Below are positions 4,922 to 19,127 of a stretch of DNA of 24,595 bases, piece after piece. A program made the position numbers and the translations under genes. A model generated the notes under the pieces. The model ran no database searches, had not been told where the DNA came from, and was given only the letters and a program-made list of their open reading frames with translations. This DNA is from a virus. The stretch covers positions 1 through 24,595 of the IMG/VR virus record IMGVR_UViG_3300008110_000389; one strand, written 5' to 3'. Numbering within the stretch: the stretch's first letter is position 1; every line of letters starts with the position of its first letter.

Positions 4922-7576
4922 ATGTCTATACAAGTCACAGTTGTTAATGAAAACAACATTGCCGTTGAGGTAACCCCTACTGCCACGCAAACAATTAACA
5001 TTGATCGTGGTTTATATGGTCCTAGCGGTTTCTCTGGCTATTCTGGTGCATCTGGCTATTCTGGGTACTCAGGCATTAGCGGATTTTCAGGTAGCGGCAT
5101 TAGTGGTATCTCTGGTTATTCTGGAATAAGCGGTTTCTCAGGTTATAGCGGTATTGGTATAAGTGGCTATTCTGGTTCTGGAGTTTCTGGTTACTCTGGT
5201 TTTAGCGGAATTGGAACAAGTGGCTTTAGCGGGATTTCTGGCTACTCTGGTTTTAGCGGTTCTGGAATTTCTGGTTACTCTGGGATTGGCGTTTCTGGGT
5301 TTAGCGGTTTCTCTGGCTATTCGGGAATTGGCTCATCAGGCTTTAGCGGAATATCTGGCTATTCGGGAAGTGGCATAAGTGGATATTCAGGATTTTCTGG
5401 TAGCGGCATTTCTGGTTTTTCTGGATTCTCTGGTGCTAGTGGTCAGCAAGGTGTTTCTATTACTATCAAAGGTGAAGTTGCCACAGTTGCAAATTTGCCA
5501 ATGGTCGGCAACCAAGTCAATGACGCATACATTGTTGCGGATGATGGTAACTGGTGGATTTGGAACGGCACGGCTTGGTATGACGGGGGACAGATTGTTG
5601 GTCCACAGGGCGCAAGCGGTTACTCTGGTTACTCAGGCATTGGCACAAGTGGTTATAGCGGATACAGCGGTTTAGCAACTTCTGGTTACAGCGGGATTTC
5701 TGGTTACTCAGGAAGTGGCGTTAGCGGCTATTCAGGCTTTAGCGGTAGCGGTGTTTCTGGTTATTCTGGAAGCGGTATAAGCGGTTATTCGGGAAGCGGA
5801 ATCTCTGGGTATTCAGGCACAAGCGGTTATTCTGGAATTGGCACAAGTGGATTTTCTGGATATTCTGGAAGCGGTGTAAGCGGGTATTCTGGCTTTTCTG
5901 GTGTGTCTGGTTATTCTGGTTCTGGCGTATCTGGTTGGTCTGGATTTTCTGGCATATCTGGGTTTAGTGGTATCTCTGGCTACTCAGGCATATCTGGATA
6001 TTCTGGACAATCAGGCGCGGCTGGTTTGGGTGGAACAGTTGGGGCTTATGGTTCTTTCTATGACACAACAAACCAAACAACAACTGCCAATACGCCAACG
6101 GCTGTCACGCTAAACACAACGGCTGGCAACAATGGTGTAACCCTCATATCGGCAAGCCAATGGCAATTTACTAATGCTGGAACTTATAGCATTACCTATT
6201 CCATACAGTTCACAAACCACAGCACGGCTTTGGGGACTACGCAAGTTTGGTTAAAGAAAAATGGAATTAATGTTGTTGATAGTAATACACATTTTGATGT
6301 GCCAGACAAACAAGGTAGCGCATATTCATCTGAAGTTTTAACAGTTAACTATGTTTTAAATGTTTTAGCAAATGATGTGTTTCAACTTTTCTGGGACACA
6401 ACAAATGCAAATGTCTACCTTGAAACTCTTGCTGGCAATGCAACATATCCATTAACGCCTTCTGTAATCTTGACTGCTACGCAAGTAATGTATACCCAAA
6501 GCGGGTATAGCGGCACAAGCGGATTTAGTGGCATATCAGGTTTTAGCGGTCTGTCGGGATATTCAGGCGCATCAGGCTATTCTGGTTCAGGCATTAGTGG
6601 TTATAGCGGCTCTGGTATCTCAGGCTATTCTGGAAGCGGTTTGTCTGGTTACTCAGGCACATCTGGCTATTCAGGTTCAGGAATAAGCGGCTATTCAGGA
6701 AGTGGCATAAGCGGGTTCTCAGGCATTTCTGGATACTCAGGTTCAGGCATAAGTGGATTTTCAGGTAGCGGCATTAGTGGTTATTCTGGTATATCAGGAT
6801 ATTCTGGTTCTGGTATTAGCGGTTACTCAGGCACAGACGGCACATCAGGTTTTAGCGGAATTTCTGGCTACTCTGGTTCTGGTGTAAGTGGCTTTTCAGG
6901 CTTTAGTGGATTTAGTGGGATAAGCGGATTCTCAGGAATTTCTGGGTATAGCGGTTCTGGTGTATCTGGTTATTCAGGGTCGGGCATATCTGGATTCTCA
7001 GGCTTTAGTGGATTCTCAGGAATTTCTGGGTTCTCTTGCATGTCGGGTTATTCTGGTTCTGGCATTTCTGGCTTTTCTGGTTTTAGCGGTATCTCTGGAT
7101 ACTCAGGCAGAAGCGGTTATTCTGGTAGTGGCATAAGTGGATTTTCTGGAATTAGCGGATATAGTGGTTCTGGCATATCGGGTTACTCTGGTAGAAGCGG
7201 ATACTCTGGAAGCGGCACAAGCGGCTTTAGCGGATTCAGCGGAGTATCAGGTTATAGCGGTTCAAGCGCGGCAAGTATTTCTATAACCAATGACACAACA
7301 ACCGCAACAAATGTTTATCCAACTTTTGTAAATGCAACAAGTGGAACGGCAAGCACACTTTATACTGGCAATGCAAAACTTTTGTATAAGCCAAGCACGG
7401 GTGAATTGACTGCGCCAGTTCAAATATCAAGCAACGGCATTAACATTAACAATGCAACTATAAGCACAAGTTATACGATTGCTACGGGTAACAATGGATT
7501 GTCTGTTGGTCCTGTCACAGTTGCTTCTGGTCAATCTGTAACAGTATCTAGCGGTCAACGCTGGTTAGTTTTGTAA
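4922..7576 (+). CDS. Collagen-like fibre protein with embedded C1q-like domain
   Basis: An 884-residue fibre. Residues 1-32 form a short beta-like head. Three collagen-like blocks follow at about 33-175, 229-366 and 526-783, made of Gly-X-Ser triplets where X is mostly Tyr, Phe, Ile or Val, often with an extra Gly-Ser or Gly-Ile pair. Between blocks 1 and 2 is a small domain with WIWNGTAWYDGG. Between blocks 2 and 3 is a roughly 160-residue jelly-roll-like domain of C1q/BclA style (residues about 367-525). Residues 784-884 are a fibre tip common in phage tail fibres, ending in GQRWLVL. Proline is essentially confined to single GP triplets at the start of blocks 1 and 2. There is one Cys (706). 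Likely a trimeric receptor-binding or adhesive fibre. Confidence 0.75.
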   Translation: MSIQVTVVNENNIAVEVTPTATQTINIDRGLYGPSGFSGYSGASGYSGYSGISGFSGSGISGISGYSGISGFSGYSGIGISGYSGSGVSGYSGFSGIGTSGFSGISGYSGFSGSGISGYSGIGVSGFSGFSGYSGIGSSGFSGISGYSGSGISGYSGFSGSGISGFSGFSGASGQQGVSITIKGEVATVANLPMVGNQVNDAYIVADDGNWWIWNGTAWYDGGQIVGPQGASGYSGYSGIGTSGYSGYSGLATSGYSGISGYSGSGVSGYSGFSGSGVSGYSGSGISGYSGSGISGYSGTSGYSGIGTSGFSGYSGSGVSGYSGFSGVSGYSGSGVSGWSGFSGISGFSGISGYSGISGYSGQSGAAGLGGTVGAYGSFYDTTNQTTTANTPTAVTLNTTAGNNGVTLISASQWQFTNAGTYSITYSIQFTNHSTALGTTQVWLKKNGINVVDSNTHFDVPDKQGSAYSSEVLTVNYVLNVLANDVFQLFWDTTNANVYLETLAGNATYPLTPSVILTATQVMYTQSGYSGTSGFSGISGFSGLSGYSGASGYSGSGISGYSGSGISGYSGSGLSGYSGTSGYSGSGISGYSGSGISGFSGISGYSGSGISGFSGSGISGYSGISGYSGSGISGYSGTDGTSGFSGISGYSGSGVSGFSGFSGFSGISGFSGISGYSGSGVSGYSGSGISGFSGFSGFSGISGFSCMSGYSGSGISGFSGFSGISGYSGRSGYSGSGISGFSGISGYSGSGISGYSGRSGYSGSGTSGFSGFSGVSGYSGSSAASISITNDTTTATNVYPTFVNATSGTASTLYTGNAKLLYKPSTGELTAPVQISSNGININNATISTSYTIATGNNGLSVGPVTVASGQSVTVSSGQRWLVL
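5018..7267 (+). repeat. Coding GGN-NNN-TCN/AGY triplet repeats (three blocks)
   Basis: Degenerate 9-base units encode Gly-(Tyr/Phe/Ile/Val)-Ser, in three blocks at about 5018-5445, 5606-6020 and 6497-7267. Copies vary freely among synonymous Gly codons (GGT, GGC, GGA, GGG) and among TCN and AGY serine codons, so the protein pattern is far more regular than the DNA. The repeat is a protein-coding fibre shaft, not an array of separate elements. Confidence 0.9.
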
Positions 7577-15820: not shown

Positions 15821-16453
15821 TCAAAAAGTGTGTTCTGCGGAGATTTGTTTTACGATTTCTTGGTAGAAGTCTCGCGCACCTTCTACTTTGACTTTGATTT
15901 TTTCTTCTAATGCCAGATCGCGTTCATAGAAAACACGGGTCACGCGCAGTTCTGGATTGATGTGGTCGACTTGGTGCAAGGCTTTATCTTCATAGCCAAT
16001 TAAGTTTTCTGGTGTGTTAACCAAGCAATAGCACAGTTCAAACTTATCCAAATTGGTCAACATCATGTAAGCGCGACCTTGCCATTCATAGCCCTTATCT
16101 TTGCCCAGATCGGATAGACAAGGAAAGGTAGTAAGCGACCAAGAAGATTTAATATCGCGCACCACACCATCATCACAAATAAGGTCTGGCGTACCTCTCA
16201 GCCAATCGTTTTCCAGCATTAATTCATTCTTTTTGTAATTGCTAAACAAAACAGAATTAAGCAGTCCAATGGATTGGTCTTCAACATCAATACCTTTGGT
16301 CATGTATTTGCTAGTAATCTTTTCATCAAAGCCATAGACAAATTCCTTTGCCATTTTGATGATGGTGGTTTTAGCCCCGACCGACAGGATTTCATCTTTG
16401 CCTTTGGGGTCGGTCATTATTTCCCCAATCATGTGCGGTCTGAATTTAAGCAT
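15821..16453 (-). CDS. YqaJ/PD-(D/E)XK exonuclease (recombination)
   Basis: A 210-residue protein. Glu58 (GIDVEDQSI), GTPDLI with Asp90, and VRDIKSSW with Asp100-x-Lys102 match the E-D-DxK site of the YqaJ/RecB-like exonucleases; YEWQGRAYMML (around residue 122) supplies the conserved Gln. In phages this enzyme chews one strand to make single-stranded DNA for annealing by ERF or Bet. It directly follows the ERF gene (8-base overlap), forming a two-gene recombination pair like lambda exo-bet. The size matches the family. Confidence 0.75.
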   Translation of the reverse strand: MLKFRPHMIGEIMTDPKGKDEILSVGAKTTIIKMAKEFVYGFDEKITSKYMTKGIDVEDQSIGLLNSVLFSNYKKNELMLENDWLRGTPDLICDDGVVRDIKSSWSLTTFPCLSDLGKDKGYEWQGRAYMMLTNLDKFELCYCLVNTPENLIGYEDKALHQVDHINPELRVTRVFYERDLALEEKIKVKVEGARDFYQEIVKQISAEHTF

Positions 16454-16988
16454 TGGCTAAAGCCTTTACAAGTAATTCATTTTGTTGTTTGGTAAGTGCA
16501 AACTGTTCATGCAATTGAACTGTGGTGTATTTGCCTTCTTTGATTCGCAAAATAGCATCAGAAAAGCGTTTGTCAGTTAGCGTTTGTTTTTCTGATTCTT
16601 TAGGCATTGCGGATTCCCCATCATCATCTTCTGGGGCGATACAGCAAGCCGCCATAAGCGAACCCCTACGGGCATAGGTCAAAGCCGACATAAAGCCCTG
16701 TGGGTCATTCTTGGTGGTTGGAAAGCGAAGGATTCCACATTCAAGCATTTCGCCAGATTCATGGATAAACATAGTTTCCACTTCAATGGCATCAACGCAT
16801 TCATAAGACTTCTGAATAAGCGCAATTCCATTGTTGTTAAGCGCATCCATGACCGCATCAATGCAAGATGCTAGATCGGCATACCGACCGCCAGTTACGC
16901 TATTTTTAAAAGCGGGATTGACTGAGTTTTTAAGTGCTGGTGCAAACTCTTTCTGAGCGCGTACCAGCGCAGTTGCTAAATTCTTCAT
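16446..16988 (-). CDS. ERF-family single-strand annealing recombinase
   Basis: A 180-residue protein with the classic ERF pattern: KNLATALVRAQKEFAPALKN, GGRYADLASCIDAVMDALNN, NGIALIQ, then DPQGFMSALTYARRGSLMA followed by an acidic EDDDGE. ERF proteins coat and anneal complementary single strands, partnered with an exonuclease. GGGAAA lies 5 bases before its ATG. The C-terminal 50 residues are a charged helical tail. Confidence 0.85.
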   Translation of the reverse strand: MKNLATALVRAQKEFAPALKNSVNPAFKNSVTGGRYADLASCIDAVMDALNNNGIALIQKSYECVDAIEVETMFIHESGEMLECGILRFPTTKNDPQGFMSALTYARRGSLMAACCIAPEDDDGESAMPKESEKQTLTDKRFSDAILRIKEGKYTTVQLHEQFALTKQQNELLVKALANA

Positions 16989-17447: not shown

Positions 17448-17696
17448 TTAATAATCTTGACCAGCCTGTGCTGGTTCTGCGCCCAAAAACTGTAAGTTAA
17501 ATGGTGCATCATGTTTCCATGCTGTCACATCTTGATTCAAGATGGACAATGCTTCTTTGCTGGTAGATGCTTCGTAGTCACGGCAGATAGCCACTTCAAT
17601 GCCATTTTCGTATCTGGCAACCCATGCGCCTGATACTGTGCAATTAAGGCGTGGATTAAACTTTTCTTCTTGTAAATAAACTTCTATGATTTTCAT
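17448..17696 (-). CDS. Hypothetical operon protein (82 residues)
   Basis: ATG 17694-17696 overlaps the upstream TGA by 4 bases and has AAGGGG about 6 bases before it, so I prefer it to the longer frame reaching 17765. The protein begins MKIIEVYLQEEKFNPRLNC and contains AWVARYENGIEVAICRDYE, a beta-meander-like pattern, with a Pro/Ala/Gln end. No family recognised. Confidence 0.65.
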   Translation of the reverse strand: MKIIEVYLQEEKFNPRLNCTVSGAWVARYENGIEVAICRDYEASTSKEALSILNQDVTAWKHDAPFNLQFLGAEPAQAGQDY

Positions 17697-17923
17697 GCTG
17701 TTACCCCTTTTGACTGAAGGAATAATGAAATATCTATATTGCTTTTGCGTGTATCTCTTTCGCAATCTTTTACAGAATCAAAACCGCGAACACCACAATC
17801 AAATTCATCTGCAAATTTATAGCCGTTGTAAAGCGTAACAATAATGCTGTTACCTTCTGCGCGTTCATCATCAATGAAGGCTATCCAAGGGCGGGTGGCT
17901 AATAATTTATCTAATGTTTTCAT
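17693..17923 (-). CDS. Hypothetical protein, first gene of the leftward operon
   Basis: A 76-residue protein, MKTLDKLLATRPWIAFIDDE, then IIVTLYNGYKFADEF and a charged end KSNIDISLFLQSKG. It is the first gene after promoter-leader copy 1; AAAGG lies about 8 bases before its ATG, inside the conserved leader. A small alpha/beta protein of unknown role. As the promoter-proximal gene it may be an early host-takeover factor, which is inference. Confidence 0.65.
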   Translation of the reverse strand: MKTLDKLLATRPWIAFIDDERAEGNSIIVTLYNGYKFADEFDCGVRGFDSVKDCERDTRKSNIDISLFLQSKGVTA

Positions 17924-17924
17924 G

Positions 17925-17979
17925 TTAATTACCTTTTAAAAGACCCTTTGCGGAATTGCTTTGGGGATAAATAATTATA
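17925..17979 (-). promoter_or_regulatory. Promoter-leader, copy 1 (minus strand)
   Basis: On the minus strand TATAAT (17979-17974) is followed by the 14-base box ATCCCCAAAGCAAT (17968-17955), then GGGTCTTTTAAAAGG and AATTA, ending at the ATG 17923. The same series with the same 50-base distance from TATAAT to ATG occurs before the gene at 18058-18678. No good -35 is seen, so an activator may be needed. Confidence 0.55.
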
Positions 17980-18033
17980 AGAAAGATTAAGCCCTAAAAC
18001 CATTTATGCAAAAATAATTTATAGGACAAACCC

Positions 18034-18060
18034 TAAGAAGGGGCTTTCGCCCCATTCTTA
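18034..18060 (-). terminator. Strong hairpin terminator overlapping a stop codon
   Basis: On the minus strand TAAGAA-T-GGGGC-GAAA-GCCCC-TTCTTA folds as an 11-pair stem with one bulged T and a GNRA loop. The first TAA is the stop codon of the gene at 18058-18678. The 3' arm is U-rich (UUCUU), so it can act as an intrinsic terminator for that gene and, being symmetric, may also slow opposite transcription. Confidence 0.65.
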
Positions 18061-18678
18061 TGCAGTTGCTAAATTTCTCCACTTTGTTGTTGATACATAC
18101 ATAGACCATGAAGTATTTATACCTTCTGGCTTGTAAAAAACTGAACCGCCTTCAACGCGAACGCTAACAATGCGATTGCCGTTTAATATTTTTACTTCAT
18201 TGATGCCAACTGGTGTTGGTGCTACTTTTTTAGCAACTTCAGATAATGGCTTGCCGTGGTATTCATTAGCAATTCTTTCCATAGTTTCAATAAATGTTTT
18301 GCCAGCACTTGCGCGATTGCGTAATTCCCAAACCATTTGATCACGGGCATGGCGTTGGTCATAAGTAGTTGCTTCTGCGTAAGGGATGGTTACTTTTTGG
18401 TTGTATCGACCAGTAACAACAACTGCTGGCAATAATTTGCCCATCACTACTTGTTCTGCTTGGGCAAGCAATTGTGGAATTTCTGCGCTAATGTCAGCAA
18501 TGATTTTGTCGGTCTGTGTGCGACTAACTTGGATAGGTGCAAAAAACTCACCAGAGCAAACACCATTGAACCAGCCGTGTTCTTTTGTGTAACCATGTTT
18601 AGCCATCTTGCCATTCTTAACGGCTTGGTCACGACCACAGCATTGGCAGTTACCGCGAAGTTGTTTAGTTGCTTGCAT
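18058..18678 (-). CDS. Zinc-finger-like early protein
   Basis: ATG 18676-18678 has AAAAGGAAA upstream, in the shared leader; an in-frame GTG at 18708 would lie inside the leader and is rejected. The protein has 206 residues. Residues about 10-30 (GNCQCCGRDQAVKNGKMAKHG) have CxxC then a Lys/His segment, typical of zinc fingers in phage proteins, followed by HGWFNGVCSGEFFAP with another Cys. A long helical middle (about 50-110) and a beta end follow. It forms a one-gene unit placed where lambda has cI/rex, but no helix-turn-helix is seen. A DNA-binding or host-shutoff role is possible; function unknown. Confidence 0.65.
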   Translation of the reverse strand: MQATKQLRGNCQCCGRDQAVKNGKMAKHGYTKEHGWFNGVCSGEFFAPIQVSRTQTDKIIADISAEIPQLLAQAEQVVMGKLLPAVVVTGRYNQKVTIPYAEATTYDQRHARDQMVWELRNRASAGKTFIETMERIANEYHGKPLSEVAKKVAPTPVGINEVKILNGNRIVSVRVEGGSVFYKPEGINTSWSMYVSTTKWRNLATA

Positions 18679-18681
18679 ATG

Positions 18682-18734
18682 TAATTTCCTTTTAAAGACC
18701 CTCCGCACTATTGCTTTGGGGATGATGAATTATA
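18682..18734 (-). promoter_or_regulatory. Promoter-leader, copy 2 (minus strand)
   Basis: The minus strand carries TATAAT (18734-18729), the same ATCCCCAAAGCAAT box (18723-18710), GGGTCTTTAAAAGG and AATTA before ATG 18678. Relative to copy 1 there is one base less in the A-run and changes in the variable parts, but the TATAAT-to-ATG distance is the same. An inverted repeat TAAGT-TT-ACTTA lies immediately upstream of the TATAAT. Confidence 0.55.
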
Positions 18735-18843
18735 TAAGTAAACTTATTACCCAAGTAAAGCATAAGGTCTATAACATAGATTGTTTTCAGAAATAAATTA
18801 TAAGAAATATTACAAGAAACAAAAGTTTTACAAATTAAAATGC

Positions 18844-18871
18844 TTTAAAAGTTAGATGCCTTATGTATAAT
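18844..18871 (+). promoter_or_regulatory. Promoter of cro (rightward early promoter)
   Basis: TTTAAA (18844-18849, 4 of 6) and a perfect TATAAT (18866-18871) are 16 bases apart. Transcription would begin around 18878-18879, exactly at the cro ATG, and no ribosome site precedes that ATG, so the transcript is probably leaderless. Confidence 0.6.
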
Positions 18872-18878
18872 TTAGCGT

Positions 18879-19034
18879 ATGACTAAACAAGACTTAATCA
18901 AACTGGCTGGTTCACAGAACAAACTTGCACAACTCATTGGCGTTAGCCAAGCGGCAGTTTCGCAATGGAAAGAAGTGCCACAGTCAAGAATCTGGCAATT
19001 GAAATTACTGAAGCCTGAGTGGTTCGCAGTATAA
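18879..19034 (+). CDS. cro: Cro-like transcription regulator
   Basis: A 51-residue protein, MTKQDLIKLAGSQNKLAQLI followed by GVSQAAVSQWKEVPQSRIWQ and ending KPEWFAV. The helix-turn-helix is LAQLIGVSQAAVSQW (residues about 16-30), and the size and the ending after RIWQLKLLKPEWF are typical of Cro/YdaS-type repressors. It binds operator DNA as a dimer and would turn down the divergent early promoters. It is the first gene of the rightward early operon. Confidence 0.8.
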   Translation: MTKQDLIKLAGSQNKLAQLIGVSQAAVSQWKEVPQSRIWQLKLLKPEWFAV

Positions 19035-19051
19035 TTTTTGAGACACGGCTA

Positions 19052-19127
19052 GGTACGAAGTCATGAGCGTACCGAAAAAGGAACTCCCCCTCTGCCGTTG
19101 TTTCTTTTCTGGGAGTTACGCGGAGTT
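19052..19127 (+). promoter_or_regulatory. Structured leader with alternative hairpins before the O-like gene
   Basis: Hairpin 1 is GGTACG (19052-19057) with CGTACC (19068-19073). For hairpin 2, AACTCCC (19082-19088) pairs with GGGAGTT (19111-19117). The same AACTCC can instead pair with GGAGTT at 19122-19127, which holds the GGAG ribosome site 8 bases before the ATG 19134. The two pairings exclude each other, so the leader could switch the O-like gene on or off. About 100 bases between cro and the next gene are otherwise non-coding. Confidence 0.45.

Follow-up and report, generated by a model that had tools for sequence, protein, structure and literature searches.

A recurrent early promoter-leader with a predicted 5′-terminal RNA hairpin in uncultured phages

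The stretch of viral DNA analysed here (IMG/VR record IMGVR_UViG_3300008110_000389, positions 1 to 24,595; hereafter the window, 24,595 nucleotides) contains two minus-strand transcription units that begin with closely similar leaders, A and B. Leader A precedes a gene for a 206-aa protein (18058..18678, −), which matches PHROG 17208, a family without assigned function. Directly behind this gene is a 3′ hairpin, GGGGCGAAAGCCCC (18040..18053, −), with a GNRA-type loop and a poor U tract on the minus strand, and this hairpin is retained behind the 206-aa gene in relatives at 60% and 75% identity. Leader B is followed by a 76-aa gene (17693..17923, −) without a family match and then by an ORF with a C-terminal tag (17448-17696), the Erf annealing protein gene (16446-16988), and an exonuclease gene (15821-16453). 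A Pfam search with the 206-aa and 76-aa proteins gave zero matches, and the two are unrelated, as originally predicted.

The tagged ORF (17448-17696, −) ends in the peptide [YF]NxxFLGAxPAxAGxDY, which closes about ten unrelated small early proteins (carriers are L125, L127, L197, L200, L204, L222, L252, L314, L422, L424, and L428). Because the codon differences are synonymous, the peptide appears to be under selection at the protein level. A homologue of the window protein in L293 lacks the tag, and this modular peptide is perhaps a shared targeting or degradation tag. Among the tail genes of the window there is also an 884-aa protein (4922-7576, +) that consists largely of GYSG/GFSG-type repeats with a collagen-like GXX pattern.

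Both leaders present the same series of elements, as the original prediction described. In leader A, the −10 hexamer TATAAT is at 18729..18734 (−) and is overlapped by an alternative −10, TATATA (18736-18731, −), with TTTACT 17 nt upstream. It is followed on the minus strand by a 14-base box, ATCCCCAAAGCAAT (18723-18710), by GGGTCTTT (18701-18694), by a Shine-Dalgarno sequence AAGGA that is unpaired in the predicted fold (18687..18691), and by the ATG start codon at 18678. The corresponding elements of leader B, also on the minus strand, are TATAAT at 17974..17979, the second copy of ATCCCCAAAGCAAT at 17968-17955, GGGTCTTT at 17946-17939, a Shine-Dalgarno sequence AAGGT at 17931..17935, and ATG at 17923. 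TATAAT and ATG are spaced by exactly 50 bases in the two leaders alike, and the box starts at the sixth base past the −10 hexamer, at about the predicted transcription start (+1). The −35 regions are poor at both sites, as had been noted, and a consensus promoter scan consequently lists neither of them. A dyad, TTAGGGTTTGTCCTA (18022..18036, −), is present 68 nt ahead of the hairpin of leader B described below.

Aligned in register, leaders A and B are identical at 43 of 60 positions, far beyond chance, as the best of 20,000 random window pairs reached 33 of 60. The box by itself is little proof, since repeated 14-mers are not rare in the window (50 such words, with both strands counted and the repetitive tail gene left out). 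Exact copies of the 14-mer occur in at least 119 IMG/VR stretches, and, this virus aside, essentially all are chance matches inside genes; the only exact match placed in a leader, L103, is the same virus. With its IMG/VR matches in unrelated contexts, the box was rejected as a unit, and for the same reason relatives were fetched via the 206-aa protein instead. Apart from one chance match, a search with a window-type pattern led back solely to this virus and two near relatives, and a search of bacterial genomes with the 206-aa protein, aimed at the host, yielded a single fragmentary and uninformative match.

Among the relatives, contigs G004-G006 (60% protein identity) have a promoter-leader before the 206-aa gene and another behind it, each with the −10 sequence TATACT. 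Here the box is replaced by ACAACAGCAATAGTGCAGTTGT and CTGACACAGCAATACCGCATAGTCAG, which have the centre GCAATNNYGC in common and flanks that differ yet are complementary. In leader B of the 95% relative (G003), CCCCCAAGC..GCAAGGGG stands where the window has CCCCAAAGC..GCAAAGGG, a paired change to CCCC..GGGG. The original prediction looked to relatives for conservation of the box, and the box is not conserved beyond near-identical relatives, which on that criterion rules out the box and leaves the leader standing; the conserved unit is a predicted RNA hairpin at the predicted transcription start, not the 14-base box.

This hairpin had been overlooked in the original prediction; its 3′ arm lies inside GGGTCTTT, where GGG pairs with the CCC of the box. 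Hairpin A (18696..18723, −) is supported by model score, fold, and covariation in relatives, and pairs CCC (18720-18718) with GGG (18701-18699), followed by an internal loop AAA/GGA and an inner stem of GC (18714-18713) with GC (18706-18705) around the loop AAUAGU, for which GCA/UGC is an alternative closure. Hairpin B (17941..17968, −), supported in the same three ways, has CCC/GGG, an internal loop AAA/AAA, the inner stem GC/GC, and the loop AAUUCC. With a covariance model (R1) they score 34.1 and 39.0 bits, respectively; nowhere else in the window does the score exceed 12.8. The general form is a variable outer stem, an A-rich internal loop, and an inner GC/GC stem with the loop AAUNNY, such that the tip reads GC-AAUNNY-GC. 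The internal loop varies in sequence (ACA/AYA, AAA/AAA, CA/AYA, A/A, or none) and in size (3x3, 2x3, 1x1, or none). The window hairpins are predicted to be weak, at −5.1 and −6.8 kcal/mol, and when the leaders are folded as single sequences the result is no better than for shuffled sequence, so the case for the hairpin rests on comparison.

Two groups of related leaders were recovered by pattern searches of viral sequences. The class I pattern, CCCCAGCAATNNYGCANAGGGTC, matched 101 viral stretches, nearly all of them promoter-leaders followed by a Shine-Dalgarno sequence and ATG, and the class II pattern, ACAGCAATANYGCANAGT, matched 62, most of them leaders of the same kind; unrelated class II matches (e.g. 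L345, L357) have neither stem nor promoter. Leaders of this type are present in well over 100 uncultured viral contigs, where they precede about 38 unrelated protein clusters, mostly shorter than 150 aa. None of ten leader-led proteins tested against Pfam matched, and PHROG matches of such proteins are mainly to families without known function. Each of 26 contigs of 30-55 kb has one to three copies at the model threshold, and sub-threshold variants add some. When 50,697 phage records were searched at the nucleotide level, neither the early region nor the class I and class II consensus leaders gave a convincing match, and in Rfam 15 the leaders had no plausible match and no score at or near the gathering threshold. 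The leaders form a phage RNA element family that is new to the searched libraries and of a known general kind.

In the stretches compared, the window virus has Cro-like, Erf, HNH, and other proteins in common with the class I viruses; with the class II viruses, whose contigs were compared in part, it has in common the leader and mainly the 206-aa protein. A structure resembling int-alpA RNA (RF02996) is present in the window at 19042-19115 (+), in the gap between the P22-Cro-like gene and a replication gene, with 27.7 bits against a cut-off of 35.8. G003, the near relative, has a similar match (24.8 bits), and so do class I viruses, where two exceed the cut-off (G019, 39.6; G010, 38.8) and the matches are near the leader on the opposite strand.

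Across relatives the tip is constant while complementary stems differ, including CCC/GGG, AUCGAC/GUCGAU, CUGAC/GUCAG, ACAAC/GUUGU, and CCG/CGG, and contig G004 alone contains three stems (AUCGAC/GUCGAU, ACAAC/GUUGU, and CUGAC/GUCAG) under one tip. In alignment A6, with 31 distinct rows found by the covariance model, there are 42 double-change cells versus 11.7 in shuffled alignments, and the covariation score is 0.430 versus 0.119 when shuffled and at most 0.122 when partners are slid. Alignment A5, made of 12 hand-picked rows, agrees with A6 and has 14 double-change cells versus 3.8 shuffled. Some alignment rows were retrieved with patterns in which the tip and portions of the arms are preset. 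Both arms are fixed in the class I search pattern, which so lends the pairing no support; in class II the pairing is independent evidence, because that pattern placed no constraint on either the 5′ arm or the outer 3′ arm. A descriptor scan over 1.09 Mb that specified a −10, a hairpin, a Shine-Dalgarno sequence, and a start codon with free arm sequences found 18 sites with the tip GCAANNNNGC, at least 15 of them plausible as leaders by eye, and 0-4 sites for each of 16 control tips. We conclude with high confidence that this is a real and widespread RNA leader family.

These paired changes bear on two simpler accounts. The near-identical leader pair 755 bp apart in one virus could have arisen simply because a promoter was recently duplicated together with its gene cassette, the repeated leader being functionless, but this is most improbable given the compensating CCCC/GGGG change in copy B of G003, the arm covariation across distant relatives, and the same leader architecture in viruses whose genes are only 47-60% identical. 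Between the duplicated and the convergent origins originally envisaged, duplication is the better fit for the two window copies, and the leader is a mobile or repeatedly copied cassette, as its placement ahead of about 38 gene families in other viruses indicates.

Alternatively, the arms could be half-sites of a DNA operator for a repressor, e.g. the Cro-like protein encoded next to leader A (18879-19034; Pfam P22_Cro, E 8.9e-13), and an inverted repeat at a promoter beside a P22-Cro-like gene would suit such a role. We regard this as very improbable, as the arms differ among copies within one virus (three in contig G004) and half-sites are not conserved, the asymmetric tip is constant and always oriented with transcription, and the outermost pair in class I is G-U, a mismatch for an inverted DNA repeat. 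The spacer also offers better operator candidates, namely GTTTAAG..CTTAAAC and the palindrome ATAAGTAAACTTAT. The latter (18734..18747, assigned to neither strand) adjoins and overlaps the −10 of leader A, has a P22-type AAGnnnnCTT core, and is a candidate operator for the adjacent P22-Cro-like protein, at the DNA level and separate from the hairpin. Comparable palindromes (GTTAAG..CTTAAC, GTTTAAG..CTTAAAC) are present between −35 and −10 in class I and class II promoters. Of the two roles raised in the original prediction, the 5′ mRNA element is thus borne out by the compensating arms and constant tip, and the operator is disfavoured by the same evidence. The Cro-like gene itself has a TATAAT just 7 nt ahead of its ATG (18866-18879, +), and with so short a gap its mRNA is probably leaderless, in contrast to the hairpin-led early genes.

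The place of the hairpin relative to the promoter is fixed. In about 97% of 35 nonredundant class II leaders the −10 sequence TATACT sits 6 nt ahead of the stem, which therefore begins at the predicted +1; the class I stem begins about 8 nt past the −10, at about +3 of the predicted start. Upstream, class II leaders have in common a dyad, TTAGGGAAAnnnCCTA, placed about 70 nt ahead of the hairpin and followed by an A/T-rich stretch; their spacer contains GTTTAA. The dyad is also found in some class I leaders and in window copy B (18036-18022) and is absent from copy A. Hairpins of other sequence occupy the same place in the same contigs (e.g. UGCACUGAACUUCUCGGUGC, CGGUCAAGUGACCG, ACCACGAUGUUGUGGU): 57% of 47 strong sigma-70 leaders without a GCAA tip have a hairpin with an MFE of −5 or lower pairing within +1..+6, as do 8% of 13 leaders in control viral contigs. 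The comparison is small, with only 13-14 control leaders, and the motif itself was used to retrieve part of the family set. A 160-aa sigma-factor-like protein (L158:5027-5506, +; phrog_351, E 1.3e-18) is encoded just ahead of the second leader of contig G004 and is a possible special sigma factor or regulator of the leader promoters.

Several known leader elements invite comparison. Cluster K mycobacteriophages have Start-Associated Sequences (SAS) and extended SAS; the SAS is a fixed 13-mer, GGGATAGGAGCCC, located 3-7 bp ahead of the start codon, and about half of the copies have an inverted repeat upstream, with the sequence of the repeats kept (PMC3203893). The likeness is that a short element is repeated before many unrelated early genes in one phage group, here about 38 protein clusters. 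The leaders shown here differ in that they lack the 13-mer 3-7 bp before the start codon, their arms covary, and the element begins at the predicted +1, about 45 nt ahead of the start codon. A leader peptide was also considered and rejected; class I leaders can be read as AUGCCCCAGCAA.., yet this frame does not persist as far as a stop, and the AUG is missing from the window leaders.

An element at the very start of early transcripts might also act in nascent-RNA antitermination, in the manner of lambdoid nut sites or of the HK022 put RNA, an RNA structure that is likewise just downstream of an early sigma-70 promoter. The nut comparison draws on the small hairpin and on a boxA-like GGUCUUUUA in class I and window leaders, where the boxA-resembling GGGUCUUU(U/A)A follows the inner stem. 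We consider antitermination improbable: the order of the elements is reversed relative to nut, class II leaders have no boxA-like stretch, and no N-like protein was identified. The put RNA is about 70 nt with two long stem-loops (PMC9378689), whereas the leaders here are about 45 nt long and have a single hairpin of 22-28 nt. Moreover, leader A serves only one gene, which has a closing hairpin of its own and is followed by a new promoter.

The closest parallels are the 5′-terminal stabilising stem-loops of E. coli ompA, papA, and 5′-hairpin bla, in which a hairpin of unconstrained sequence lies at the 5′ end or a few nucleotides from it, upstream of an open ribosome site. The T7 gene 10 leader is another 5′-terminal mRNA-stabilising stem-loop. 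The bla mRNA becomes more stable when a 5′ hairpin is appended, and RppH is impeded by hairpins of this kind (reviewed in PMC3997798). The leaders described here leave few 5′ nucleotides unpaired, with the stem at the predicted +1 to +3, and keep stem structure over sequence, both by covariation and by alternative hairpins at the same place; the varying stem fits a 5′-terminal stabiliser. They differ from these stabilisers in the weak stems of the window and in that a single conserved tip, carried on widely differing stems, is found ahead of some 38 gene families.

Sequence comparison establishes that the hairpin exists, that its arms change in pairs, that it stands at a fixed position with respect to the −10, and that it is used ahead of many unrelated genes. 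In our interpretation the sites are sigma-70 early-promoter cassettes whose mRNA opens with a 5′-terminal hairpin, and we lean, with some reserve, to a specific protective mechanism. The transcript would open with a small hairpin 0-3 nt from the predicted start, behind which an accessible Shine-Dalgarno site and then the start codon would lie. By analogy, the hairpin would act as a 5′-end stabiliser that prolongs mRNA half-life; it may make the 5′ end of short early mRNAs harder to attack and may keep the ribosome site single-stranded, with the tip GC-AAUNNY-GC as a putative extra recognition feature. Copying of the cassette before new genes would give rise to many small, separately promoted early units. 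Counting against this interpretation are the weak window hairpins, the lack of a 5′ hairpin in some relatives of the 206-aa gene (e.g. L176/L177, L197/L200), and the use of predicted starts.

The tip is conserved more strongly than a pure end-protector needs, and its constancy together with the weak window stems suggests that something also reads it. A fuller departure is that the hairpin, as a translational operator or RNA tag, is a site recognised by the ribosome or by a specific RNA-binding protein, which switches or boosts early translation, with the stem merely presenting the tip. GCAAUNNYGC is indeed constant despite changing stem sequence and internal loop size, the window stems are too weak to serve through stability alone, and the hairpin is roughly 20-30 nt ahead of the start codon, near the ribosome landing zone. 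We nevertheless think this rather unlikely, as some leaders have wholly different tips on 5′ hairpins at the same place, and in the stretches compared no single phage protein turned up in every carrier. Under the protective mechanism that we favour, a reader of the tip would likelier be a host factor than a phage protein, because over the stretches compared the window and class II viruses hardly overlap in proteins except for the 206-aa one. We suggest tentatively, as a possibility that we would not rank as probable, a widespread and previously undescribed family in which a host factor, whether decay enzyme, RNA chaperone, or ribosome, reads the tip. The hairpin would then be a portable tag by which short early viral messages are singled out for survival or for preferential translation, found across phage lineages that have few genes in common.

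The leader family provides a handle on the expression of small early genes, most of them without an assigned function, in a large uncultured phage group, and with its motif such genes and the sites where they start can be located directly in raw sequence. The family also offers a ready system in which to ask whether phage messages are stabilised by natural 5′ hairpins. Should the tip be a recognition site, it would bring to light a step of host RNA binding on which several phage lineages draw.
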